A stretch of 64,000 nt of DNA from Xanthobacter aminoxidans (GTDB lineage Bacteria > Pseudomonadota > Alphaproteobacteria > Rhizobiales > Xanthobacteraceae). The notes under the pieces were generated by a model. It saw only the letters and a program-made list of their open reading frames with translations, did not search any database and was not told the origin of the DNA. The translations under genes and the position numbers were made by a program. Below, one piece after another: positions 16,436-30,766 of this stretch. The stretch covers positions 124,001-188,000 of the forward strand of contig NZ_JAMJXC010000001.1 in NCBI RefSeq assembly GCF_023571765.1. The letters are read 5' to 3'. Position 1 is the stretch's first letter. Every line of letters starts with the position of its first letter.

Positions 16436-16954
16436 TCAGGCCTCGGCCTTGTGCTTCGCCTGCTTGGTGAATTTCTTGATGACGCGGTCGCGCTTCAGCT
16501 TGGAGATGTGATCGATGAAGAGCACGCCGTTGAGATGGTCGATCTCGTGCTGCACGCAGGTGGCGAACAGGCCCTCGGCCTCCACCTCCCGCGTCTTGCC
16601 CTCCACGTCCATAAAGCGCACCGCCACCTTCGCCGGGCGCTCCACCTCCTCGTAATATTCGGGGATGGAGAGGCAGCCCTCGCTGTAGACGGAGGTCTCT
16701 TCCGAGGCGGCGATGATTTCCGGATTGATGAGGGCGATGGGCTTCTTGTTCTCGCCGTCGCGCGCGACATCGATGGTGATGACGCGGCGCTGCACGCCCA
16801 CCTGTATGGCCGCCAGCCCGATGCCGGGGGCGTCGTACATGGTCTCGAACATGTCCTCCACCAGCTTGCGCACCTCGTTGTCGATCTTCTCGACCGGGGT
16901 GGAAAGCGTGCGCAGCTTGGGCTCGGGGATGATGAGGATGGGCCGGATCGTCAT
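16436..16954 (-). CDS. def: Peptide deformylase
   Basis: 172 residues. All three metal/catalytic motifs are present: [20 protein letters not shown] (Cys ligand; the common form is EGCLSxP) and [14 protein letters not shown] (two His ligands and Glu). Removes the N-formyl group from nascent proteins. First gene of the minus-strand def-fmt-truA operon, divergent from rmuC; the shared 5' gap is under 110 bp. Confidence 0.97.
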
Positions 16955-17054
16955 TCGAGCGAGATAAGCGAAGCTGCCGCATAGGTCAACATGTTCGCCG
17001 TTTGTTCAGATGAGAGAATCACGTAAGAAGAGAAGGTTCACGCAAGAGCAAGGC

Positions 17055-18224
17055 ATGCCGGTTGTGCTGTTCACCTTCGGCGGGCGGCCCTTCACCGTGG
17101 CCGAGGCGGCTGCGGTCGCCGCGGCGGTGCTGGCGCTGCTGCTGTTCCTCGTGCTGGTGACGCTCGTGCGCCAGTCGCGGGCGCGCGCCGCCGCGGTCGC
17201 CGAGGAGGCGCTGCGGCGGGACGAGATGGACCGCCGCCTGCGCGAGCTGGTCCGCGTCCAGTCCGAGACCGCCGGCCGCGTGCAGAGCATGACGGAGATC
17301 CTCGCCCAAAGGCAGAGCGAGCTGGCCCGCGCCGTCTCCGACCGGCTCGACCAGACCTCCCATCGGCTGGGAGAGACGCTCTCCACCGCCGCCCGCGCCA
17401 CCCATGAGAGCCTGACGCGCATCGCCGAGCGTCTCGTGATGGTGGAGACGGCCGAGCGCACGCTCGGCGATCTTTCCGCGCAGGTGGTTTCGTTGCGCGA
17501 GACGCTGGCCAACAAGCAGGCGCGCGGCGCTTTCGGGCAGGCGCGGATGGAGGCCATCGTCTCCGATGGTTTGCCGCGCGGCAGCTTCGCCTTCCAGTAC
17601 ACCCTCTCCAACGGCAAAAGGCCGGACTGCGCCATCTTCCTGCCGGGGGATGCGCGCCCGCTGCTCATCGATTCCAAATTCCCGCTGGAGGCCGTCACCG
17701 CCTTCCGCGAGGCGCCATCCGCCGAGCATCGCAAGGCCGCCGGCCAGCGCCTGCGCAACGATCTCTTGAAGCACGTCTATGACGTGGCCGAGCGCTATTT
17801 CATCCCCGGCGAGACGCAGGACGTGGCGCTCATCTTCGTGCCGTCCGAATCCGTCTATGCCGAGATCAGCGAGCATTTCGACGGCGTGGTGCAGGAGGCC
17901 TATCGCCAGCGCGTGGTGCTGGTTTCGCCATCGCTCCTGATGCTGGCCGTGCAGGTGGTGCAGGCCATCGCCAAGGACGCCCGCATGCGCGAGGAGGCGG
18001 ACCGCGTGCGCGCCGAGGTCGGCGCCCTGGTGGAGGACGTGAGCCGCCTGCGCGAGCGGGTGGGCGACCTCGCCAAGCATTTCGCGCAGGTGGGTGACGA
18101 CGTACAGCGCGTCATCATCTCCGCCGACAAGATCGCCCGGCGCGGACTGAGGCTGGAGCAGCTCGACTTCGACACCCCCGGTCCGGCGTCCTCCCCGCCG
18201 CCCTCCTCCCCGCCGCCCAAGTGA
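17055..18224 (+). CDS. rmuC: RmuC-family DNA recombination protein
   Basis: 389 residues from the ATG at 17055 (AGAGCAAGG just upstream; an in-frame ATG at 17010 adds 15 charged residues). One N-terminal transmembrane helix ([17 protein letters not shown]), then a long coiled-coil rich in Arg/Glu (~50-140), then the RmuC nuclease-like core ([41 protein letters not shown]). RmuC limits inversions at short inverted repeats in E. coli. Proline-rich tail at the C-terminus. Confidence 0.92.
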
Positions 18225-20624: not shown

Positions 20625-20709
20625 GCCCAGGTGGCGGAATTGGTAGACGCGCTGGTTTCAGGTACCAGTGGTGAAAGCCGTGGAGGTTCGAGTCCTCTCC
20701 TGGGCACCA
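20625..20709 (+). tRNA. tRNA-Leu, anticodon CAG
   Basis: 85 nt including encoded CCA. Acceptor stem GCCCAGG pairs with CCTGGGC; D-arm GGCGGAATTGGTAGACGC; anticodon stem CTGGT/ACCAG encloses TTCAGGT, so the anticodon is CAG (20659-20661); a long variable arm typical of class II tRNAs follows; T-arm GGTTCGAGTCC. Reads CUG. Its 3' end is the integration target of the island that follows. Confidence 0.97.
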
Positions 20710-20727
20710 TTTACCCTTCCGGGTAGG
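20694..20727 (+). repeat. Left attachment repeat (tRNA 3' end and flank)
   Basis: CCTCTCCTGGGCACCATT followed by TACCCTTCCGGGTAG. It holds the last 16 bases of tRNA-Leu, so the tRNA stays intact after integration. The copy at 30282 is identical except for one missing G in CTGGGCACC. Confidence 0.85.
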
Positions 20728-20780
20728 TCCCAAAAGCTCCGAAAACCCTTACAAACACTCAATTCTCCGGTCCAGTAGGT

Positions 20781-20860
20781 TCCGGGGGTGTCTGGGGGTA
20801 TCCGTTGGCAGCCGGCAAATTTGGGGGTATTTTTGGGGGTATCGGAAACGTACCCCCATT
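20781..20860 (+). repeat. GGGGGTAT direct repeats, probable integrase arm sites (left)
   Basis: TGGGGGTAT occurs at 20793, 20822 and 20834, a related GGGGGTG at 20783, and the reverse form ACCCCCA at 20852, all between the attachment repeat and the integrase start. The same word recurs just inside the right end (30201, 30213) and in the second integration end (30380, 30409). Tyrosine integrases use such short arm repeats beside the core. The binding role is inferred. Confidence 0.65.
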
Positions 20861-20874
20861 GAGGGCGACCCCCC

Positions 20875-22095
20875 ATGCCCCTGACCGACACGGCCATCCG
20901 CGCGGCCAAGGCCGGCGACAAGCCCTATAAGCTGGCGGACGGTGGCGGTCTCTATCTCCTGGTGAACCCGACCGGCTCCCGCCTCTGGCGGTTGAAGTAC
21001 CGCATCGAGGGCAAGGAGAAACTCCTCGCCATAGGCCCCTATCCCGATGTGACGCTCGCCAAGGCGCGGGAGCGGCGCGACGACGCCAAGAAGGCGATCA
21101 TCGACGGCGCTGACCCCTCCGCCCTCAAGAAGCAGTCGCGGGAGGAGGCGAAAGCGGCGCCGACCAACACCTTCCGCGCGGTGGCCGAGGAACACCTCGC
21201 CAAGCTGGAGCGCGAGGGGCTTGCCGATATCACGCTGGGGAAGCGGCGTTGGCTGCTTGGGTTCGCATACCCCCATTTCGGGGACCGGGATATCGGCGGT
21301 GTCAGCTCGGCCGACGTGCTGGTGGCGCTGCGGGAGATCGAGGCCAAGGGCCACCATGAGACGGCGCGGCGGATGCGCTCTGTCGTCGGCTCGGTTTTCC
21401 GCTACGCCATAGCCACCGCCCGAATCGAGAACGACCCGACCTTCGCCCTGCGCGGCGCCCTGACCACGCCGAAGGTGCAGCACCGATCCGCTGTCACCAC
21501 TGCGACCGAGCTGGGCAAGCTCCTCAAGGCTATCGACGGATATCGAGGCCAGCCGGCGACACGCGCCGCGCTGCGGCTTATGCCGCTGCTGTTCCCCCGT
21601 CCCGGCGAGCTGCGCGCGGCGCGGTGGTCCGAATTCGACCTCGACAAGGCCGTTTGGTCCATTCCGGCCGAACGCATGAAGATGCGCCGGCCCCACCGCA
21701 TCCCGCTTCCCCCGCAGGCGGTGGCCATCCTCCGCGAGCTTCACGCGGTGACGGCGGAGGACGATTTCGCCTTCCCCTGCATCGGCGCGGCGAAGAAGCC
21801 GATCAGCGAGAACACCCTCAACTTCGCCCTGCGCCGTCTCGGCTTCGGCCCAGATATCGCCACCGCCCACGGCTTCCGCGCCACCGCCTCGACACTCTTG
21901 AACGAGAGCGGGCGGTGGAATCCCGACGCCATCGAGCGCCAGCTCGCCCATGCGGAGAACAATGAGGTGCGCCGGGCGTACCTGAGAGGCGAGCATTGGG
22001 AGGAGCGGGTGCGGATGATGGCGTGGTGGGCGGATCATCTGGACGGGCTGCGGGAAAGTGAGGAGGCCTCAGCCCGCCCATTGTGCACGGGCTGA
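20875..22095 (+). CDS. P4-type tyrosine integrase of the island
   Basis: 406 residues. The N-terminal DUF4102-type arm-binding domain (LTDTAIRAAKAGDKPYKLAD, then GGGLYLLVNPTGSRLWRLKY) is typical of integrases that enter tRNA genes. The catalytic domain shows RPGELRAARWSEFD (Arg), HGFRATASTLLNE (His/Arg) and LAHAENNEVRRAYLRGEHW with the nucleophilic Tyr. It lies 166 bp from the tRNA and points into the island. A second, truncated copy of its first ~95 codons lies at 30449. Confidence 0.95.
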   Translation: MPLTDTAIRAAKAGDKPYKLADGGGLYLLVNPTGSRLWRLKYRIEGKEKLLAIGPYPDVTLAKARERRDDAKKAIIDGADPSALKKQSREEAKAAPTNTFRAVAEEHLAKLEREGLADITLGKRRWLLGFAYPHFGDRDIGGVSSADVLVALREIEAKGHHETARRMRSVVGSVFRYAIATARIENDPTFALRGALTTPKVQHRSAVTTATELGKLLKAIDGYRGQPATRAALRLMPLLFPRPGELRAARWSEFDLDKAVWSIPAERMKMRRPHRIPLPPQAVAILRELHAVTAEDDFAFPCIGAAKKPISENTLNFALRRLGFGPDIATAHGFRATASTLLNESGRWNPDAIERQLAHAENNEVRRAYLRGEHWEERVRMMAWWADHLDGLRESEEASARPLCTG

Positions 22096-22172: not shown

Positions 22173-22868
22173 ATGTCCGGCCGGTCCAGATGGCGGCTCG
22201 CCAAGTCGCTAACCATCTATCAAGCAGCGCTTCTCATCGAAGGTTATGACCCAGCCAAATTTGAGGATTCGTCGCCATACAATTGGCATCCCGATATTAA
22301 GAATAAGACGGCCGCAGTTATTCATGCGCTTCGAAGTGCGAGTGAAGATGGAACAATAAAACTGGCAAAAGAGTTTCGTACTGGCGAGTTCGAGGAATAT
22401 CTCGATCTAGATCGCAGTCTGATGCGGGTAGACGATATTCGTTCATGGTTGGAAGCAGCCGGTTTCAAGGATGGGTTTTTTGTACCCATCGAAGAAGAGG
22501 ATGATGGGCCGGGTGACTTCTTCAGTCCCTACTACGCGCCGAAACTAGCGGCTGCGAATGATGCCTGGAAGGCCGTTACGTCGGATAAGAAATGGCTTCG
22601 AGGACGCTCGCCAAAAAAGGCGATCGAGCTTTGGTTGAAAGAGAACGCGGCCCGATACGGACTGCTGAACAAAGACGGAACGCCAAATGCCACCGGGATC
22701 GAGGAAATAGCCAAGGTAGCGAACTGGAAACCAGCGGGCGGCGCCCCAACCACCCCCAAGGATCGCCGCGAACATGGGGGAGGGTTCGGAACAACGGTCC
22801 CCCCTCTTTCGACAAGCGAAGGGGCGGGTTCGTTCAGTTCCGACCTAGACGACGACATCCCCTTCTAG
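22173..22868 (+). CDS. Hypothetical island protein, 231 residues
   Basis: Begins MSGRSRWRLAKSLTIYQAALLIEGYDP, an N-terminal helical motif often seen in proteins of integrative elements. It continues with acidic and aromatic stretches (VDDIRSWLEAAGF; VPIEEEDDGPGDFFSPYY), a Lys-rich basic helix (KKWLRGRSPKKAIELWLKEN) and a disordered acidic tail (SSDLDDDIPF). No catalytic motif or membrane segment is visible. Codon use is much more AT-rich than the chromosomal genes, a sign of transfer. Function unknown. Confidence 0.75.
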   Translation: MSGRSRWRLAKSLTIYQAALLIEGYDPAKFEDSSPYNWHPDIKNKTAAVIHALRSASEDGTIKLAKEFRTGEFEEYLDLDRSLMRVDDIRSWLEAAGFKDGFFVPIEEEDDGPGDFFSPYYAPKLAAANDAWKAVTSDKKWLRGRSPKKAIELWLKENAARYGLLNKDGTPNATGIEEIAKVANWKPAGGAPTTPKDRREHGGGFGTTVPPLSTSEGAGSFSSDLDDDIPF

Positions 22869-22973: not shown

Positions 22974-23213
22974 ATGTCCACTCGGACCCGGATGGAGCCA
23001 ATGAACGCGAACGATACGACGACCCGCCCCTCTCTCCTGCGCCTGGAGGCCGTGAAGGCCCGTACCTGCCTCAGCCGCAGCACCATCTACGCCTATATGC
23101 GGGAGGGGCGCTTTCCCCAGCCGGTGGCCCTGACCGAGCGGTGCGTTGCCTGGATCGAGGCGGAGATTGACGGCTGGATTGCCGACCGCATCGCGACGGG
23201 GCGGCGGGGGTGA
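22974..23213 (+). CDS. AlpA-family phage regulatory protein (excisionase-like)
   Basis: 79 residues; internal ATGs at 22992 and 23001 are possible starts and no site is clearly preferred. The MerR-like winged helix is diagnostic: LEAVKARTCLSRSTIYAYMREGRFPQPVAL followed by WIEAEIDGWIADRIA. AlpA proteins control integrase expression or act as excisionases in P4-type islands. The next gene starts inside its stop region. Confidence 0.85.
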   Translation: MSTRTRMEPMNANDTTTRPSLLRLEAVKARTCLSRSTIYAYMREGRFPQPVALTERCVAWIEAEIDGWIADRIATGRRG

Positions 23214-23701
23214 AGGGAATGCGCGCCCGCAAGCCGCGCCGGTGCTCTCCGCAGAAGGTGAAGCAGGGCACCACCTATGAAGTGGCCGAGGTTGCCAAGC
23301 TCCTCGGCATCCACCGCAACACCGTGCGGCGGTGGCTCAAGGAGGGGCTGGGGGCGATCGATGACCGGCGCCCCCTCCTGATCCATGGCTCGGCCCTCAG
23401 GGCCTTCCTCGCCAAGCGGCGGGAGAGCCGGCGCCACACATGCCGCCCCGGCGAGTTCTATTGCTTTCGCTGCCGGGTGCCGCGCGCGCCTTGGGGCGGG
23501 ACGGCTGACCTCTCATTCCGCAATGAGAAGGTCGCGCGCCTTGCTGCCCTCTGCGCCTCCTGCGGAACCCCCATGCACCGCACCGTGCGGCGGGCCGACC
23601 TGCCGGCCCTCGGCGCCCTGATCGATCTGCACAGGCTGGCGCCGGAACGAATGAATGGGTGTTCCGACCCCAATGCAAACCGTGCTTTCGAGGAGGTGTA
23701 A
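23210..23701 (+). CDS. Helix-turn-helix / zinc-ribbon protein
   Basis: 163 residues from a GTG overlapping the previous stop, or 160 from ATG 23219. The N-terminus is an excisionase/MerR-type HTH (YEVAEVAKLLGIHRNTVRRWLKEGL). A Cys4 zinc ribbon follows: CFRC at ~residues 84-87 and CASC at ~114-117. A GAGGAGGT site just before its stop serves the next gene, a tyrosine recombinase, so the two are coupled. The pair may form a recombination module in which this protein guides or regulates the recombinase; this is inference. Confidence 0.75.
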   Translation: MKGMRARKPRRCSPQKVKQGTTYEVAEVAKLLGIHRNTVRRWLKEGLGAIDDRRPLLIHGSALRAFLAKRRESRRHTCRPGEFYCFRCRVPRAPWGGTADLSFRNEKVARLAALCASCGTPMHRTVRRADLPALGALIDLHRLAPERMNGCSDPNANRAFEEV

Positions 23702-23705
23702 CGCG

Positions 23706-24815
23706 ATGACGAGACTGAACCCGTCCAATGAGCGCCTGAAGCGGGACTATATCCGCTATCTGAAGGAAGCCAAGGGCAAGAGCGAGGCGACGCTCGATGC
23801 CGTGCGCAAGGCCCTCGCACGCTATGAGGCGTACACGGCTGCGAAGGACTTCAAGACCTTCCGGCGCGAGCAGGCTATGGGCTTCAAGGCGCGGCTTGCC
23901 GAGACCGAAGGCGTGCGCACCGGCGAGGCCTTGAGCGCATCCACGCAGGCCACCACGCTCACCGCGCTGAAGGAGTTCTTCACCTGGCTGTCGTGGCAGC
24001 CCGGCTTCAAGTCCAAGGTCCACATGGCGGATATCGATTATCTGTCGCCGTCGAACAAGGATGCGGCGCGAGCCAAGGCGGCGAAGCTGCGGGCCTTCCC
24101 CAGCCTCGAACTGGTGCGTGCGACCGTTGCCGCCATGCCGGAAGAAACCGTGATCGAGCGCCGCAATCGCGCCCTGGTCGCTTTCACGCTCCTGACCGGC
24201 ATCCGCGACCGCGCGCTGGTGTCGCTGTCGCTCGGCCATCTGGACACGTCCGGCAAGACACCGGTGGTGGCGCAGGACCCCAACAGCGTCGAGACCAAAT
24301 TCGCGAAGGCCATCGTCACCTATTTCTTCCCGGTGGGCGACGACCTCGCCGATATCGCGCTCGCCTGGATCGAGGAATTGCGCAAGGTCCACCTGTTCGG
24401 CCCGGCCGACCCGCTCTTCCCCCGCACGCGGATGGGCCTTGGCGAGGATGGCGGCTTTGCGCCGGTGGGCATCGAGCGGGAGCACTGGAGCAATGCCTCG
24501 CCGGTGCGGGAGATTTTCCGCAAGGCCTTCGAGCGCGCGGGCCTGCCCTATTTCCCGCCCCACTCCTTCCGCCACACCCTCGGCCATCTGGCGCAGACCA
24601 TGTGCCGGACCCCGGAGGAACTGAAGGCCTGGAGCCAGAACCTCGGCCACGAACACATCGCCACCACGCTCACGTCGTATGGCCGAATCGATCCCCACCG
24701 GCAGGGGGAGGTGATGGGGCGGATGGGAGCGCAAGCCCCCAGCAGCGACGATGATACGCTGGCGCAGATCGGCGCCTTGCTGGCCAAACGAAGAGGTGGC
24801 GATTTGGTCGCCTAG
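23706..24815 (+). CDS. Second tyrosine recombinase of the island
   Basis: 369 residues, start ATG 23706 with GAGGAGGT upstream. The core-binding domain opens KRDYIRYLKEAKGKSEATLD. Catalytic signatures are TGIRDRALVSLSL (Arg), PPHSFRHTLGHLAQ (His-x-x-Arg) and LGHEHIATTLTSYGRI (Tyr). Not related in length or N-terminal domain to the P4-type integrase at the island edge. It may move an internal cassette, or be a relic of a nested insertion; no flanking repeats were recognised. Confidence 0.9.
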   Translation: MTRLNPSNERLKRDYIRYLKEAKGKSEATLDAVRKALARYEAYTAAKDFKTFRREQAMGFKARLAETEGVRTGEALSASTQATTLTALKEFFTWLSWQPGFKSKVHMADIDYLSPSNKDAARAKAAKLRAFPSLELVRATVAAMPEETVIERRNRALVAFTLLTGIRDRALVSLSLGHLDTSGKTPVVAQDPNSVETKFAKAIVTYFFPVGDDLADIALAWIEELRKVHLFGPADPLFPRTRMGLGEDGGFAPVGIEREHWSNASPVREIFRKAFERAGLPYFPPHSFRHTLGHLAQTMCRTPEELKAWSQNLGHEHIATTLTSYGRIDPHRQGEVMGRMGAQAPSSDDDTLAQIGALLAKRRGGDLVA

Positions 24816-24900: not shown

Positions 24901-27900
24901 ATGCAGGGGGAAGCCTTGTCCGATTCAGCTTCGTTCATTTCCGGCGCGCTGTTCACGACCGACTACCTCGCGGACGCGATTAAGCATACTGAAGCCTATC
25001 GCTCCGTTGACGCTGCCAGCCTTCGCGCCCGTTTGGCCGAAATCGCTGTTCCGTTCCCTAAGAGCATCCGAACCAACGAAAGCCAGACTGAAGACGACTT
25101 CATATGGCCTGTGCTCGGTGCCCTTGGCTGGTCCGATAGCCTCCGGCAACAGAATCTGACCGCCAGCGGTCGCGACGATGTACCCGACGGGCTCTTGTTC
25201 GCCGACGCCGCATCGAAGGTGGCGGCCAACGCACAGGCCGAACAATGGAGGCGTTATGCGCATGGCCTCTGCGTCGTGGAGTGCAAGCGGTGGGCTCGGC
25301 CCCTCGACCGCGCATCAGGTAAGGATGAGACCACCGCGCCGTCAACGCAGATGTTGCGATATCTGCGACGCATCGACGACTTGACCAGTGGCCGTCTGCG
25401 TTGGGGTATCCTTACCAACGGTTCGCGGTGGCGGCTCTACTGGGCTGGTGCGCGTTCGGTGTCGGAACAGTTTCTGGAGATCGACCTTGCCCGCGTCCTC
25501 GCACTCGATGGTGCTGACCTCTTCGCCAGCGATGCGGACCGCGAGCATTGGCTGCGGGTGTTTGCCGTTCTGTTCTCGCGTGAAGCGTTCCTCGGCACAG
25601 GTGTCGATCGGCGAACTTTCCACGAGCGCGCCCGCGCCGATGCGGCCTTCTATGAGGAAAAGGTTGCCTCTAGCCTGTCGGAGCTGGTGTTCACCACCGT
25701 CTTCCCCAACCTAGCCGGAGCCATCGCCGAAGCGGCACCGGACGCACCTCTAACCGAGGTGCGCGACACGGCGTTGGTGCTGCTCTATCGACTGCTGTTC
25801 CTGCTCTACGCTGAAGACCGCGCGCTGCTGCCGGTGAACGACAAACGCTATGATGACTATGCCCTGCGCAACTTGCGACTCGACGTGGGCAGGCGTGTGT
25901 CGAATGGTGATGCCTTCTCCACGAGCGCCACGCGCATCTTCGGGCATGTGGCGGACTTGGCGCGCATAATCGACCGAGGAGATACCAGCGTCGGCATTCC
26001 GCCCTATAACGGCGGCTTGTTCGCCGCCGACGGCACGCCGCTCCTGGGGCGGGTGCGCATCGCCGATGCCATCATGGCCGGGGCACTCGATGCCCTGTCC
26101 TATGAGCGTTCTACGGGTGAGCGGCGCTATATCAACTACCGGGACCTGTCAGTTCAGCAGCTCGGTTCCATCTATGAGCGATTGCTGGAGTTTGAGCTGA
26201 TCCGGAGAGAAGATGGTACGCTTTCGGTGCGGCCCAACCTTTTCGCCCGCAAGAATAGCGGGAGCTATTACACACCCGACGAACTGGTGGGCCTGATCCT
26301 TGCCCAGACGCTGGAGCCGCTGATCATAGAGCGGCTCGGCACCTTTCGCACGGCGCTCGCCGGGCTCGACCCGGAAGAGTCTGAAGCTGTGCGTCGCCGC
26401 GCATTACGCGAGGCAGACCCTGCCGAGGCGATCCTTAGGCTGCGCATCTGTGATCCGGCCATGGGCTCCGGCCACTTCCTCGTCAGCCTCGTGGACATGA
26501 TCGCCGACCATGTGCTCGACGCCATGGCGGAAGCCGCAGTGCTGGGGGGGGAACTCGGCTATGTCTCCCCACTGGCGGAGAAAATCGAGGACATCCGAAC
26601 CACCATCTTACGCAACGCCCGCGCGGCAAAATGGGCTGTCGACGAAGCCCAGCTCGACGACCGGCACATCGTTCGGCGTATGGTGCTCAAACGCTGCATC
26701 TATGGGGTGGACAAGAACCCCATGGCGGTAGAGCTGGCTAAGGTTGCCCTTTGGCTCCACACTTTTACCGTTGGCGCGCCCCTCTCCTTCATTGACCATC
26801 ATCTGCGCACGGGCGACAGTCTGTTCGGCCTGTGGGTGCGTGATGCCATCGACAAGGCGGCAGCGCGGGGCGGCGGCGAACTGCTCTATGCCGCCGCATT
26901 GAAGGAGGCACAGTCGGCGGCATCCGCCATGCAGGTGATCGAGCGGCTGGTGGACGTGGAGATTGCCGAGGCGCACCAATCCGCAGACACCTTCTTCGGC
27001 ATCAAGGCACAGGTGGCCCCGCTGGATGCCTTCGTCTCGTTCCTGCATGCCCTTGACTGGCTGGACTTGAAATCACGCGAAGATAAAGCGGCTGTGAGGG
27101 CTTGGCTTGACGGCCAGTTCGGCAACCCAATTGACATTGCTGGCGGCCGAGCGCAGCCGCAGTTCGGCCGCGTGCGGCGGGACGAGGGCGAACGTTTTGC
27201 CGCTATTCTGAAACGCGCCCACGCCTTGATTGCTGAGGAGCGATTCCTCAATTGGCAGATCGCCTTTCCTGGCGTGTGGTCGAACTGGGAAGGCCGGGAG
27301 CGTGATGGCGGGTTTGACGCGGTTGTGGGCAATCCGCCGTGGGACCGTATCAAGCTGCAACAGGTGGAATGGTTCGCAGCTCGCAAGCCAGAAATTGCGC
27401 TGGCGCAGCGGGCCTCTGACCGTGCCCGCATGATCGCAGCCCTAAAGGCCGAGGGTGCTCCGCTCTTTGCCGACTATGAAAAGGCCGAGGCGCGTGCAGC
27501 GGACACCGCCCGCGTCGCGCGCAAGTCGGGCCACTATCCATTTCTGGCAGGCGGCGATACGAATCTTAATTCGCTTTTCATTGAGCGCGCCCACGCGCTG
27601 GTAAAGCAGGAGGGTATGGTCGGCGTCCTGGTCCCTTCGGGTATCGCGTCGGACCAGAGTTCTGCTGCATTCTTCCGCCAAGTCACAAGTAATAGGCAGA
27701 TTCATGCGGTCATCGATTTTTTCAATCGCCGCTACGACGGTAGTTTATTCTTCCCAGATGTATATTACCGCTTCAAGTTTTGTGCCTATGTCGCAGGAGG
27801 CGAAGCTCGGACGTTCAAGGAGGCGTCGTACGGATTTTTCATCCGTGAGCTTGCAGAGATTGAAAATCCTGATCGCGTGTTTGCTTTAACCGCTGATGAG

Positions 27901-29019
27901 ATTCGGAAAATCAATCCTAATAGCGGAACCGCTCCGATTTTTCGATCAAGACGCGACAAAGACATCACCGCACAAATTTATGATCGCCTCCCCGTCTTAG
28001 TGAACCGCTCCGGCAATGAGCCAGTAGTTGTGTGGCCGTTGCGATACGTTCGTATGTTAGATATGGCGAACGACAGCGGTCTCTTTCGGACCCGTGCCGA
28101 ACTTGAGAGCGAAGAAGGCGCTTGGCCCATCAACGGCAATTGCTTCGCATCATCTGCCGGGCAGTGGGTGCCGCTTTACGAGGGCAAGATGGTGCAGGCA
28201 TTCGACCATCGGGCCTCAGACGTCGTACTGGCGGAGGCCAACGTTTTTCGTCCCGGTCAGGGCGCCGACTTGACCGATGAGGAACACTGTGACACCGCTC
28301 GCCTGCCCAATCCGCGCTATTGGGTGCCGGCGTCCAAGATTGGATGGGCCGCGCCCACCGACTGGTGCGTGTCGCTCAAGGATGTCACATCAGTCACGAA
28401 CGCGCGCACCACCATCGCCACGATGATCCCACGCTACGCCGCCGGGCATACCCTTCCCGTACTCTTTCCCGAGAAAGGCGATGGTCCGCCCAGTTATGTC
28501 GAGTTCGCACCCTTGGTACTCGCAAATTTGAACAGCGTAGTCTTCGACTATCTCGCTCGGCAGAAAGTCCATGGCAATCACCTTGCTTGGTATCTGCTAG
28601 AGCAGCTCCCTACCGTCCCGCCTGCCGCCTATACTCGCGCCTTTGGCACGAAGGCGGCCAAAGACATCGTGCGGGATGCGGTACTCGAATTGACCTATAC
28701 AGCCCACGATATGGCTCCCTTCGCCCGCGACATGGGCCATGTGGATGCGTCGGGCGCCGTCCTGCCGCCCTTTGTCTGGGACGAGGGCCGCCGACTGAAG
28801 CTCCGGGCGAAGCTCGATGCGCTCTATTTCATCCTCTACGGCGTATTCGATCCTGCCGCACCGGGGCAGAGCCGTGACAACATCCGATATATTTTCTCGA
28901 CCTTCCCGATCGTGGAGCGGGAGGAGGTGTCAAGATACGGCCGGTATCGCAGCCGCGACATGACATTGGCCTGGATCAACGCGCTCATGGCAGGACAGCC
29001 GGACGTGGAGATAGAATAA
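24901..29019 (+). CDS. Single-chain restriction-methylase (type IIG / Eco57I-like), 1372 residues
   Basis: Start chosen at ATG 24901; TTG 24865 and TTG 24916 (with AGGGGGA upstream) are alternatives. The N-terminus is a PD-(D/E)XK nuclease: Asp96 in VPDGLLFAD, then Glu127 and Lys129 in VVECKRW. A helical linker leads to an adenine-N6 methyltransferase: motif I DPAMGSGHFLVSLV at residue 518 and motif IV NPPW at 811-814. A large C-terminal region (~900-1372) would contain target recognition. Cutting and methylating in one chain is the type IIG plan. BREX PglX and DISARM DrmMI are similar methylases, but no BrxC/PglZ or Drm partner is present. GC falls in the recognition region (27.6-28.4 kb), suggesting exchange. 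Confidence 0.85.
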   Translation: MQGEALSDSASFISGALFTTDYLADAIKHTEAYRSVDAASLRARLAEIAVPFPKSIRTNESQTEDDFIWPVLGALGWSDSLRQQNLTASGRDDVPDGLLFADAASKVAANAQAEQWRRYAHGLCVVECKRWARPLDRASGKDETTAPSTQMLRYLRRIDDLTSGRLRWGILTNGSRWRLYWAGARSVSEQFLEIDLARVLALDGADLFASDADREHWLRVFAVLFSREAFLGTGVDRRTFHERARADAAFYEEKVASSLSELVFTTVFPNLAGAIAEAAPDAPLTEVRDTALVLLYRLLFLLYAEDRALLPVNDKRYDDYALRNLRLDVGRRVSNGDAFSTSATRIFGHVADLARIIDRGDTSVGIPPYNGGLFAADGTPLLGRVRIADAIMAGALDALSYERSTGERRYINYRDLSVQQLGSIYERLLEFELIRREDGTLSVRPNLFARKNSGSYYTPDELVGLILAQTLEPLIIERLGTFRTALAGLDPEESEAVRRRALREADPAEAILRLRICDPAMGSGHFLVSLVDMIADHVLDAMAEAAVLGGELGYVSPLAEKIEDIRTTILRNARAAKWAVDEAQLDDRHIVRRMVLKRCIYGVDKNPMAVELAKVALWLHTFTVGAPLSFIDHHLRTGDSLFGLWVRDAIDKAAARGGGELLYAAALKEAQSAASAMQVIERLVDVEIAEAHQSADTFFGIKAQVAPLDAFVSFLHALDWLDLKSREDKAAVRAWLDGQFGNPIDIAGGRAQPQFGRVRRDEGERFAAILKRAHALIAEERFLNWQIAFPGVWSNWEGRERDGGFDAVVGNPPWDRIKLQQVEWFAARKPEIALAQRASDRARMIAALKAEGAPLFADYEKAEARAADTARVARKSGHYPFLAGGDTNLNSLFIERAHALVKQEGMVGVLVPSGIASDQSSAAFFRQVTSNRQIHAVIDFFNRRYDGSLFFPDVYYRFKFCAYVAGGEARTFKEASYGFFIRELAEIENPDRVFALTADEIRKINPNSGTAPIFRSRRDKDITAQIYDRLPVLVNRSGNEPVVVWPLRYVRMLDMANDSGLFRTRAELESEEGAWPINGNCFASSAGQWVPLYEGKMVQAFDHRASDVVLAEANVFRPGQGADLTDEEHCDTARLPNPRYWVPASKIGWAAPTDWCVSLKDVTSVTNARTTIATMIPRYAAGHTLPVLFPEKGDGPPSYVEFAPLVLANLNSVVFDYLARQKVHGNHLAWYLLEQLPTVPPAAYTRAFGTKAAKDIVRDAVLELTYTAHDMAPFARDMGHVDASGAVLPPFVWDEGRRLKLRAKLDALYFILYGVFDPAAPGQSRDNIRYIFSTFPIVEREEVSRYGRYRSRDMTLAWINALMAGQPDVEIE

Positions 29020-29066
29020 TTACATGATTTGAGAGAAACCAATACTTTTGAGCTAGAGGAGACCTC

Positions 29067-30158
29067 ATGCCCATCCATCACAGTCTCTGGCGCGTCGGCG
29101 CACAACCGGCGCGGCTGGTTGAGGCGAGCCTGCCCAGTGAGGCGCTGTTGGAAGACATGATCGTCGCCGCGCCGGATATCCTCTCTCGGCAATGGATGAT
29201 GATCGGCCGGCAGGAGGACACCGGCTTTTCCGGCCGCATCGACCTCCTCGCCCTCGCCCCCGATGGCACGCTGATCCTGATCGAGTTGAAGCGCGGCAAG
29301 ACCCCGCGCGAGGTGGTGGCGCAGGCCCTCGATTATGCCACCTGGGCCGAAGGATTGCAGGCGCAGGACCTCAATCGCATCTATGCTCGCTTCTCCAAGG
29401 GCGGCAGCCTCGACGACGCCTTTGCGGCAAGGTTCGGCCAGAAGCTCGATCCCGACACGCTGAACCAGAACCACCAGATCGTTATCGTCGCATCCGAGCT
29501 GGACGCCGCCAGCGAGCGCATCGTTGGCTATCTCAACCGCCGCGACATTCCCATCAACGTGCTTTGCTTTCAGGTGTTCGAGACCGATGCCGGCCAATTG
29601 CTGAGCCGGGCCTGGTTGCTCGATCCCATCGAGACGCAGGTGGCCGCATCGAGCAGCAGCGCCTCCGGCGAAAAGGAGCCGTGGAACGGCGAATTCTATG
29701 CCAGCTTCGGCCACGACGGCGAACGCGATTGGGAAGACGCACGCCGCTACGGCTTTATCAGCGCGGGCGGCGGCTCCTGGTATACGGGCACGCTGAAGCT
29801 GCTGAAGGATGGCGATCTGGTGTGGGTGAAGGCGCCCGGCTACGGCTTCGTCGGCGTCGGCCGCGCGCGCGGCAGCTCCGTCCCCGCCTCCGACTTCACC
29901 GTGACGGACGAGGCCGGTGTCGAGCGCCCGGCGCTGGAGGTGATGAAGGGCCATTACCGCAGCGTCGCCGACGACCCGGAGCGGTGCGAATATTTCGTGC
30001 CCATGGAATGGCTCGCGACCCGGCCGCTCTCTCAGGCGGTGAACGAGACCGGCATGTTCGGCAACCAGAACACCGTCTGCGCCCCGCGCACCCCGAAATG
30101 GCGCCATACGGTGGAGCGGCTGAAGGAGCTGTTTCCGGGATGGGATAAGGGGGTATGA
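29067..30158 (+). CDS. NucS/DUF91-like PD-(D/E)XK nuclease with a possible EVE-like C-terminal domain
   Basis: 363 residues, preceded by GAGGAGACCTC. The nuclease core has Asp59 in GRIDLLAL and Glu73-Leu-Lys75 in LIELKRG, with the 13-residue spacing of the DUF91/NucS group, and then EVVAQALDYATW. Residues ~230-300 (YGFISAGGGSWYTGTLKLL; GDLVWVKAPGYGFVGVGRA) look like the beta-barrel of PUA/EVE domains, which bind modified bases. That second assignment is tentative. It follows the restriction-methylase by 47 bp in the same direction, suggesting one operon. Proposed role: an accessory nuclease in the same defence module. Confidence 0.75.
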   Translation: MPIHHSLWRVGAQPARLVEASLPSEALLEDMIVAAPDILSRQWMMIGRQEDTGFSGRIDLLALAPDGTLILIELKRGKTPREVVAQALDYATWAEGLQAQDLNRIYARFSKGGSLDDAFAARFGQKLDPDTLNQNHQIVIVASELDAASERIVGYLNRRDIPINVLCFQVFETDAGQLLSRAWLLDPIETQVAASSSSASGEKEPWNGEFYASFGHDGERDWEDARRYGFISAGGGSWYTGTLKLLKDGDLVWVKAPGYGFVGVGRARGSSVPASDFTVTDEAGVERPALEVMKGHYRSVADDPERCEYFVPMEWLATRPLSQAVNETGMFGNQNTVCAPRTPKWRHTVERLKELFPGWDKGV

Positions 30159-30281: not shown

Positions 30282-30313
30282 CCTCTCCTGGCACCATTTA
30301 CCCTTCCGGGTAG
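30282..30313 (+). repeat. Right attachment repeat / start of a second integration end
   Basis: CCTCTCCTGGCACCATTT then ACCCTTCCGGGTAG, matching 20694-20727 with one G missing. The similarity does not stop here: the following ~450 bp also match the left end of the island, so this is both the right edge of the first element and the left edge of a second. Confidence 0.8.
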
Positions 30314-30448
30314 ATCCCAAAAGCTCCGAAAACCCTTGTAGGCACTCAATTCTCCGGTTCAGCAGGTTCCGGGGGTGTCTGGGGGTATCCGTTGGCAGCC
30401 GGCAAATTTGGGGGTATCTGAAACGTACCCCCATTGAGGGCGCCCTCT

Positions 30449-30766
30449 ATGCCCCTGACCGACACGGCCATCCGCGCGGCCAAGGCCGGCGACAAGCCCT
30501 ATAAGCTGGCGGACGGTGGTGGTCTCTATCTCCTGGTGAACCCAACGGGCTCCCGCCTCTGGCGGTTGAAGTACCGCATCGAGGGCAAGGAGAAGCTCCT
30601 CGCCATAGGCCCCTATCCCGATGTGACGCTTGCCAAGGCGCGGGCGCGGCGCGACGACGCCAAGAAGGCGATCATAGACGGCGCCGACCCCTCCGCCCGC
30701 GAGAGGCCGTCAGGGGAGGAGGCGATAGTGGCGCCGTCCTTGCCGCTTTCAAGCTCGCCGTGGTGA
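30449..30766 (+). pseudogene. Truncated second copy of the P4-type integrase
   Basis: The first ~85 codons are near-identical to the integrase at 20875; similarity fades around GEEA and the frame stops after 105 codons (counting from ATG 30449), ending ...SLPLSSSPW. No catalytic domain remains. Its 5' flank (30314-30448) also matches that of the intact gene but has one TGGGGGTAT unit less. Remnant of a related element that was in tandem and was later deleted. The 58 bp between it and the lysR stop show nothing further. Confidence 0.85.

Follow-up and report, generated by a model that had tools for sequence, protein, structure and literature searches.

The 64,000-nt stretch of Xanthobacter aminoxidans contig NZ_JAMJXC010000001.1 analyzed here (positions 124,001 to 188,000 of the forward strand, hereafter the window) carries at a tRNA-Leu gene a genomic island in which two genes, P1 and P2, lie 47 bp apart on the same strand (Table 1). 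P1, whose only stop codon is the terminal one, encodes a protein resembling type IIG restriction-methylases, and P2, preceded by a Shine-Dalgarno-like GAGGAG, encodes a protein of the candidate defense family PDC-S11. An initial annotation of this DNA, made from the sequence alone, had proposed the pair as an undescribed two-gene defense module; both genes, the gap between them and every motif that it cited are exactly where it had put them.

P2 combines a NucS-type nuclease domain with a predicted PUA-type fold

P2 is already catalogued as a candidate defense protein, and as a candidate only: the PADLOC family PDC-S11 (model PDLC04916, PADLOC-DB 2.0.0) matches it along its full length (residues 1-357, E = 3.6e-149). 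PDC families are candidates obtained by 'guilt-by-embedding' (PMC10855318; PMC12988326, citing Payne et al., a preprint of 2024). According to PMC10855318, 10 strains of a 100-strain P. aeruginosa panel carried PDC-S11, 90% of those 10 being resistant, and PMC12813430 reports that in S. suis PDC-S11 co-occurs with other candidates, the sole consistently co-localized pair there being another one. The accessible portions of these descriptions (PMC12813430, PMC10855318, PMC12988326) mention no EVE/PUA-like domain. Furthermore, we found no published description of a NucS-EVE fusion in a literature search that excluded preprints and most subscription papers, and the terms 'NucS' and 'DUF91' are absent from the main text of the EVE paper PMC7641849.

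We observed that NucS is the best Pfam match of P2 (E = 1.6e-4; 22.1 bits, below the cut-off of 24) and that NucS/EndoMS also ranks first among the sequences of solved structures (6e-6 in one search, 1e-4 in another). A fold search with the full-length model of P2 gave EndoMS (1.5e-5) and NucS (2.2e-5), and in a profile alignment D59, E73 and K75 of P2 fall on the motif of the NucS catalytic domain. These three residues are invariant in all 14 rows of one alignment and in all 33 rows of another. Because the nuclease residues cited by the initial annotation are kept in aligned relatives of P1 and P2 alike, the catalytic residues of both proteins are, judging from sequence, more than chance occurrences, and its assignment of P2 to the NucS/DUF91-type nucleases agrees with sequence, fold and aligned residues. 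P2 shares with NucS/EndoMS the nuclease domain and the D, E, K motif but differs from these enzymes in lacking any counterpart of the portion that precedes the nuclease domain (P2 profile positions 23-92 align with NucS 125-193), in having an extra EVE/PUA-like domain and in its restriction-modification (R-M) neighborhood. When P2 was compared with a library of viral folds, Gp54 of Bacillus phage G came first (E = 3.6e-9; target-based TM, 0.42) and could be a nuclease relative carried by a phage.

An EVE/PUA barrel had also been proposed for the C-terminal half of P2 (residues 200-363), a claim supported by the predicted fold and not by the sequence. With the full-length model (33 sequences; predicted local distance difference test score, pLDDT, 83.6; predicted TM-score, pTM, 0.54), the first 33 PDB rows included THYN1 and YTH structures together with 2eve, 2hd9 and 2p5d, which we take to be EVE structures. 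The C-terminal domain modeled alone reached a pLDDT of 88.6 and a pTM of 0.85 and returned 203 PDB matches at E <= 10 with Foldseek. Among the best 50 of these 203 rows (probability 0.85-1.00, E 2.3e-3 to 3.7e-2, TMq 0.35-0.50), 42 are named YTH, ASCH, THYN1 or VcaM4I, two are DrmAB, and six further ones (2p5d, 2hd9, 1wmm, 2ar1, 2eve and 4r3i) are presumably EVE or YTH structures, so that EVE/YTH/ASCH rows of the PUA superfamily make up 48 of the 50. This model supports well a PUA-type fold class for the C terminus of P2, but not an exact family. Conserved residues of this domain include W206, W222, W315 and N333.

Conversely, Pfam revealed no match on P2 to EVE (PF01878) or any other PUA-type family. 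Alignment with hhalign against 20 housekeeping EVE rows gave a score of 20.9 and a probability of 3.5%; 3 of 200 column shuffles scored higher and a reversed control scored 10.2. Sequence alone therefore does not decide whether the domain is an EVE domain, and the profile match was too weak to be taken as proof of one.

A nuclease and a PUA-type reader are likewise joined in one chain in VcaM4I, a modification-dependent EVE-HNH endonuclease (PMC7897488), and the C-terminal model of P2 matches 6yex with a probability of 0.98. The HNH domain of VcaM4I is C-terminal (PMC12707154), whereas P2 has an N-terminal NucS-type PD-(D/E)XK domain.

P2 relatives are widespread and lie beside R-M systems of several types

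A survey of genomes returned at least 582 confirmed P2 relatives among at least 594 candidates, and matches on plasmids extend to Halobacteria, Deinococcus, Actinomycetes and Bacilli. No P2 match was found in phage records at E 1e-5; in a viral scan, the P2 sequence alone retrieved no locus and the P2 alignment used as query retrieved ten. Neighborhoods were examined for the best 80 of the at least 582 relatives, up to 10 kb a side; those of distant relatives come only from the plasmid (8 of the 47 records with a P2 match), viral and order samples.

Type I R-M genes were called by tblastn with six type I queries from a panel of nine (E 1e-10, 100 aligned residues), so that a few of the calls could be other methylases or helicases. 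HsdM-type genes were found at 39 of the 80 loci and HsdR-type genes at 37, with either at 41 and both at 35. In the protein cluster represented by an HsdM (73 proteins from 41 loci), 70 lie upstream of P2, 68 are on its strand and 67 are both. Furthermore, a type I specificity domain occurs in 20 of the 63 direct same-strand upstream neighbors of P2. On the other side, no Pfam family was present in more than one of 42 downstream neighbors (a 43rd, cut by a contig end, was left out).

Other partners were also observed. Another single-chain R-M enzyme lies beside P2 at three of the 80 genome loci (L077, L084 and L097) and on plasmid L016; it is a type ISP enzyme beginning 65 bp after P2 in L077 and a IIG-like enzyme near P2 in L097 and L016. 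None of the four is P1-like (tblastn, 1e-6). Among the other plasmid copies of P2, type I genes accompany two, together with zorA in L012 and with an SNF2 protein in L014, and BREX genes accompany a third (L015). Mapped onto a tree of 82 P2 proteins, the type I label requires 22 changes, of which well-supported branches force at least 11; for the single-chain label the count is four, at least three of them forced. A single-chain enzyme has thus reached the side of P2 several times, each time another one. In L084 (4348-11071), the genes for a IIG-like enzyme (1346 aa) and a MADS mad3-like AAA protein (538 aa) and P2 follow one another closely and may form a three-gene unit.

P1 resembles a solitary type IIG enzyme

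P1 matches Eco57I (4.5e-20) and N6_Mtase in Pfam. Like type IIG enzymes, it holds in one chain a PD-(D/E)XK nuclease motif, N6-adenine methylase motifs and an exchangeable region presumed to recognize the target; it differs from them in that its best single PADLOC model is DISARM DrmMI (279 bits), ahead of the type IIG model (231 bits). The target-recognition region is assigned by position and divergence rather than by structure, and the nuclease region by its sequence motif. D96, E127 and K129 are kept in all eight type-IIG-like relatives in pairwise alignments and are absent, in a separate alignment, from three more distant, DISARM-looking relatives (L056-L058). DISARM loci contain an SNF2-type helicase, and such a gene lies next door in L058. 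A search of solved-structure sequences found no P1 relative at E 0.1.

The methylase part of P1 is related to DrmMI of class 1 DISARM, but P1 carries the nuclease motif that its DISARM-looking relatives lack, no drm gene accompanies it among the island proteins, and genes of the MZB/DUF1998 type (PF09369) had no match genome-wide. The same was true of PglZ (PF08665), the partner of PglX in BREX. P1 was therefore rejected as a component of DISARM or BREX, as the initial annotation had anticipated; PADLOC models likewise gave no BREX or DISARM partner and no Druantia match among the five island proteins, the search for Druantia reaching no further.

The genes next to P1 relatives differ in a scan of ten hand-picked neighbors, including an OLD-type ATPase-TOPRIM gene (L052), an AAA_13 protein (L053) and phage genes (L151). 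Given these varied neighbors, the best reading of P1 is a type IIG enzyme that stands alone, and from its sequence it looks like an ordinary, self-sufficient one, as had been proposed from its nuclease and methylase motifs. In L052 (1203-7369, minus strand) the OLD-type gene comes directly after the P1 relative, another companion of this IIG lineage. In viral contig L151 the P1 relative (58%) sits between phage capsid and terminase genes, which indicates that phages or prophages carry this lineage as well.

P1 and P2 rarely occur together

Among 397 genomes of the order, P2 was found in 10 and P1 in 20, and the two were found together in G000, the genome of the window, where they are adjacent, and in G314, where they are unlinked. 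Among 248 genomes of the family, nine have a P2 match, three of these being partial or broken (G447, G611 and G581), and 15 have P1; both occur, adjacent in each case, in G000 and G517. P2 is thus missing from 13 of the 15 P1-bearing family genomes. Furthermore, 110 P2 loci from outside the genus were searched for a P1 relative (80 from the genome survey, 10 viral, 8 plasmid, 9 order and 3 family loci, representing 107 places, as three contigs, judging by their lengths, were sampled twice: L020/L064, L021/L067 and L209/L061). None was found in the DNA examined, 15 of the 110 loci being shorter than 10 kb and seven shorter than 6 kb, so that a distant partner could be missed. Apart from the window, only the orthologous island of the same-genus genome G517 (locus L202) has the pair. 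The rarity of the pair outside the genus, an outcome that the initial annotation had itself named as refuting its proposal, together with the previous cataloguing of P2 as PDC-S11, speaks against an undescribed two-gene module, and a dedicated P1-P2 module was rejected on the co-occurrence surveys.

The specificity part of P1 was exchanged next to a conserved P2

Comparison of the window with L202 revealed identities of 96% for P2, 94% for INT2, 93% for INT1, 92% for the HTH protein, 81% for P1 and 53% for orf22173. Identity within P1 is uneven: 90-95% over residues 1-855, 55% over 856-1250 and 85% over 1251-1372. In other genera, the 856-1250 region is 75-76% identical to that of the window in L203 and L204 (framework 68-79%) and 43% in L206 (framework 71-80%). 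Synonymous divergence (dS) from the L202 copy follows a similar course, with 0.34-0.35 for P1 residues 1-340, 0.84-1.52 for 341-850, a saturated 3.9 for 856-1250 and 0.82 for the end. By comparison, dS was 0.25 for P2, 0.25 for the HTH gene, 0.34 for INT2, 0.43 for INT1, 0.42 for the upstream host gene and 1.66 for orf22173. The history of P1 beyond residue 340 (dS 0.82-3.9) therefore differs from that of P2 (0.25), and a dN/dS of 0.115 between P2 and its same-genus copy shows purifying selection on P2.

These sequence comparisons are most simply explained by recombination in one lineage, with a tract that replaced the methylase and target-recognition part of P1 but left its nuclease part and P2 untouched. 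Exchange of target-recognition domains is known in type IIG and type I enzymes (PMC3077401, PMC3983042). Furthermore, the G+C content at third codon positions (GC3) is 0.698 for P1 and 0.846 for P2, against 0.88-0.95 for nine flanking genes, a difference between P1 and P2 that also fits separate origins.

Other features of the island

The description of the locus as island-borne proved accurate: it is flanked by two copies of a 128-nt repeat, the left one starting within the end of the tRNA-Leu gene, with a full integrase at the left end and a 5' integrase fragment at the right end. Open reading frames were called greedily, and small genes may have escaped detection. Of the five island proteins compared with PADLOC models, three gave matches: P1, P2 and, weakly, the HTH protein (to mad1, 3.5e-7).

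Table 1. Features of the island, in coordinates of the window.
Feature	Position	Strand	Remarks
tRNA-Leu (CAG)	20625..20709	+	Integration target of the island
Left island repeat	20703..20830	.	128 nt; begins within the last 7 nt of the tRNA; 95% identical to 30290-30417
Tyrosine integrase INT1	20875..22095	+	Arm-DNA-bind_3, Phage_int_M, Phage_integrase; complete
orf22173	22173..22868	+	No Pfam match at E 1; C terminus ends in DDDIPF; 53% vs same-genus copy
HTH/excisionase-like protein	23210..23701	+	HTH_17; TIGR01764 excise
Second tyrosine recombinase INT2, XerC/D-like	23655..24815	+	Family matches
P1, type IIG restriction-methyltransferase-like, 1372 aa	24901..29019	+	Motifs, Pfam, PADLOC
P1 N-terminal nuclease region	24901..25500	+	D96, E127, K129
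P1 N6-adenine methylase region	26251..27465	+	DPAMGSGHF at 518, NPPW at 811
P1 presumed target-recognition region, residues 856-1250	27466..28650	+	Exchanged between islands
P2, PDC-S11 family protein, 363 aa	29067..30158	+	PADLOC model match
P2 NucS-like PD-(D/E)XK domain, about residues 20-185	29124..29621	+	D59, E73, K75
P2 EVE/PUA-like domain, residues 203-363	29673..30155	+	Predicted fold
Right island repeat	30290..30417	.	95% identical to left copy
INT1-like integrase 5' fragment, remnant at right end	30434..30766	+	Closely related to INT1

The tRNA-proximal DNA and the integrase 5' end flank the island in two copies (20703-21165 and 30290-30739, 94-95% identical), as if two related elements had been stacked at tRNA-Leu, one of which has since decayed. 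The HTH/excisionase-like gene overlaps INT2 directly upstream of P1, and both are 92-94% identical in the same-genus island. The acidic tip of orf22173, DDEIPF in the L202 copy (16447-17139, minus strand), presumably resembles that of single-stranded-DNA-binding proteins, to whose NCBIfam C-terminal model it has a weak match (0.0062). Its N-terminal half is far more diverged from the L202 copy than the remainder, as if it had also been exchanged.

Discussion

Our results partly support the interpretation given in the initial annotation. The reading that we prefer, with an estimated probability of about 55%, makes P2 a modification-dependent restriction nuclease that acts independently and is a companion of N6-adenine R-M systems generally, next to a self-sufficient type IIG enzyme, P1. 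Here, P1 would methylate adenine at its own site and cut unmethylated DNA, its specificity region changing by recombination. The EVE/PUA-like domain of P2 would sense a modified base, and its NucS-type PD-(D/E)XK domain would cut near that base in a type IV-like manner. The likeliest candidates for the base, as in VcaM4I, are a modified cytosine or a phage hypermodification. It is the fold and the neighbors of P2 that suggest modification dependence, the kind of base and the defense activity being likewise inferred. P2 would cover those phages that evade adenine-marking R-M systems through DNA modification, which would explain why it repeatedly settles beside several R-M types. Because these partners mark the host by adenine methylation of many specificities, the trigger is probably a base other than N6-methyladenine (m6A); moreover, as the methylase/specificity half of P1 was exchanged while P2 remained unchanged, we predict that P2 must ignore the methyl mark of P1.

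P1 and P2 would thus cover complementary phage types, neither needing the other. The division of labor first proposed, in which P1 marks self and cuts unmodified DNA while P2 cuts DNA carrying foreign modifications, may therefore hold in a wider form, P2 accompanying R-M systems of several types, and is not supported as a property of a special P1-P2 module. As the P2 family is widespread and found beside many R-M systems, P1 and P2 are probably neighbors covering different phages rather than one machine. Modification-dependent nucleases share an island with type I R-M genes in the immigration control region of E. coli, a region named in PMC12707154. P2 resembles that arrangement in its position beside type I R-M genes but differs from it in being one fusion family that recurs with several R-M types.

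Several observations weigh against this interpretation. The link of the P2 C terminus to EVE domains is not seen in Pfam and is weak in hhalign. With the domain alone, Foldseek gave no match at E <= 0.001, the E-values of the listed matches are modest, and many of those rows repeat YTHDC1 or YTHDF2 and are thus not independent. Modified RNA is also among the ligands of YTH and other PUA-type domains. No recognized R-M partner was present at 36 of the 80 P2 loci within the stretch of up to 10 kb a side. Our yardstick for the type I counts, an estimate that a random 20-kb stretch would hold an HsdM_N gene about once in 100 (any such gene being present in 87 of 150 genomes of the phylum), is an unmatched baseline, as it describes random stretches and defense islands raise the figure. 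Lastly, loci with the type I label show mild clustering on the P2 tree (shuffled labels required 27.6 changes on average, and 11 of 500 shuffles were as low as 22), which indicates that partners have not been exchanged freely.

P2 could act as a backup or suicide nuclease when the neighboring R-M system is inhibited or overrun, by a logic like that of effectors embedded in type I loci, and it often lies directly after hsdS. Also in favor, the genes embedded in type I loci include the toxin-antitoxin system DarTG2 (PMC12255303). We nevertheless regard this role as unlikely, as P2 has a predicted PUA-type reader fold, accompanies R-M genes of different types, lies at other loci with no recognized R-M gene, and matched no toxin family in the Pfam, PADLOC and NCBIfam scans. 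A clean-up nuclease that processes the ends of R-M-cut DNA through its NucS-type activity appears improbable: P2 lacks the NucS part ahead of the nuclease domain, and a base-reader-like domain would be superfluous for end processing, even though its nearest structures are the NucS/EndoMS repair nucleases and it is linked to R-M genes.

We give very little credence to the idea that the YTH-like fold of P2 reads m6A deposited by the neighboring methylase, P2 then regulating or policing the R-M system. YTH domains, known m6A readers, form most of the best 50 fold rows and the partners of P2 are N6-adenine methylases, but an m6A-dependent nuclease would attack the DNA of its own host, marked by P1 or type I methylases (a point of argument only), and P2 stayed 96% identical while the specificity region of P1 was exchanged. 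Finally, that P1 and P2 form one dedicated defense module is highly improbable, since their tight same-strand spacing, the Shine-Dalgarno-like motif and the retention of the pair in the same-genus island are outweighed by the lack of P1 relatives at P2 loci outside the genus, the absence of P2 from most family genomes with P1, and the differences in dS and GC3.

Considering P2 as a modification-dependent nuclease, we tentatively extend the interpretation to its whole family, which might consist of widespread, partner-swapping NucS-EVE nucleases of bacteria and archaea attached to N6-adenine R-M systems of any type. A single locus could then hit both unmodified and modified phage DNA, and changes in R-M specificity would leave P2 untouched. 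The more interesting object is the P2 family rather than the P1-P2 pair. Should P2 indeed read modified bases, a mechanism would be at hand for a large candidate family, and the placement of that family would reveal that R-M loci frequently have two layers.

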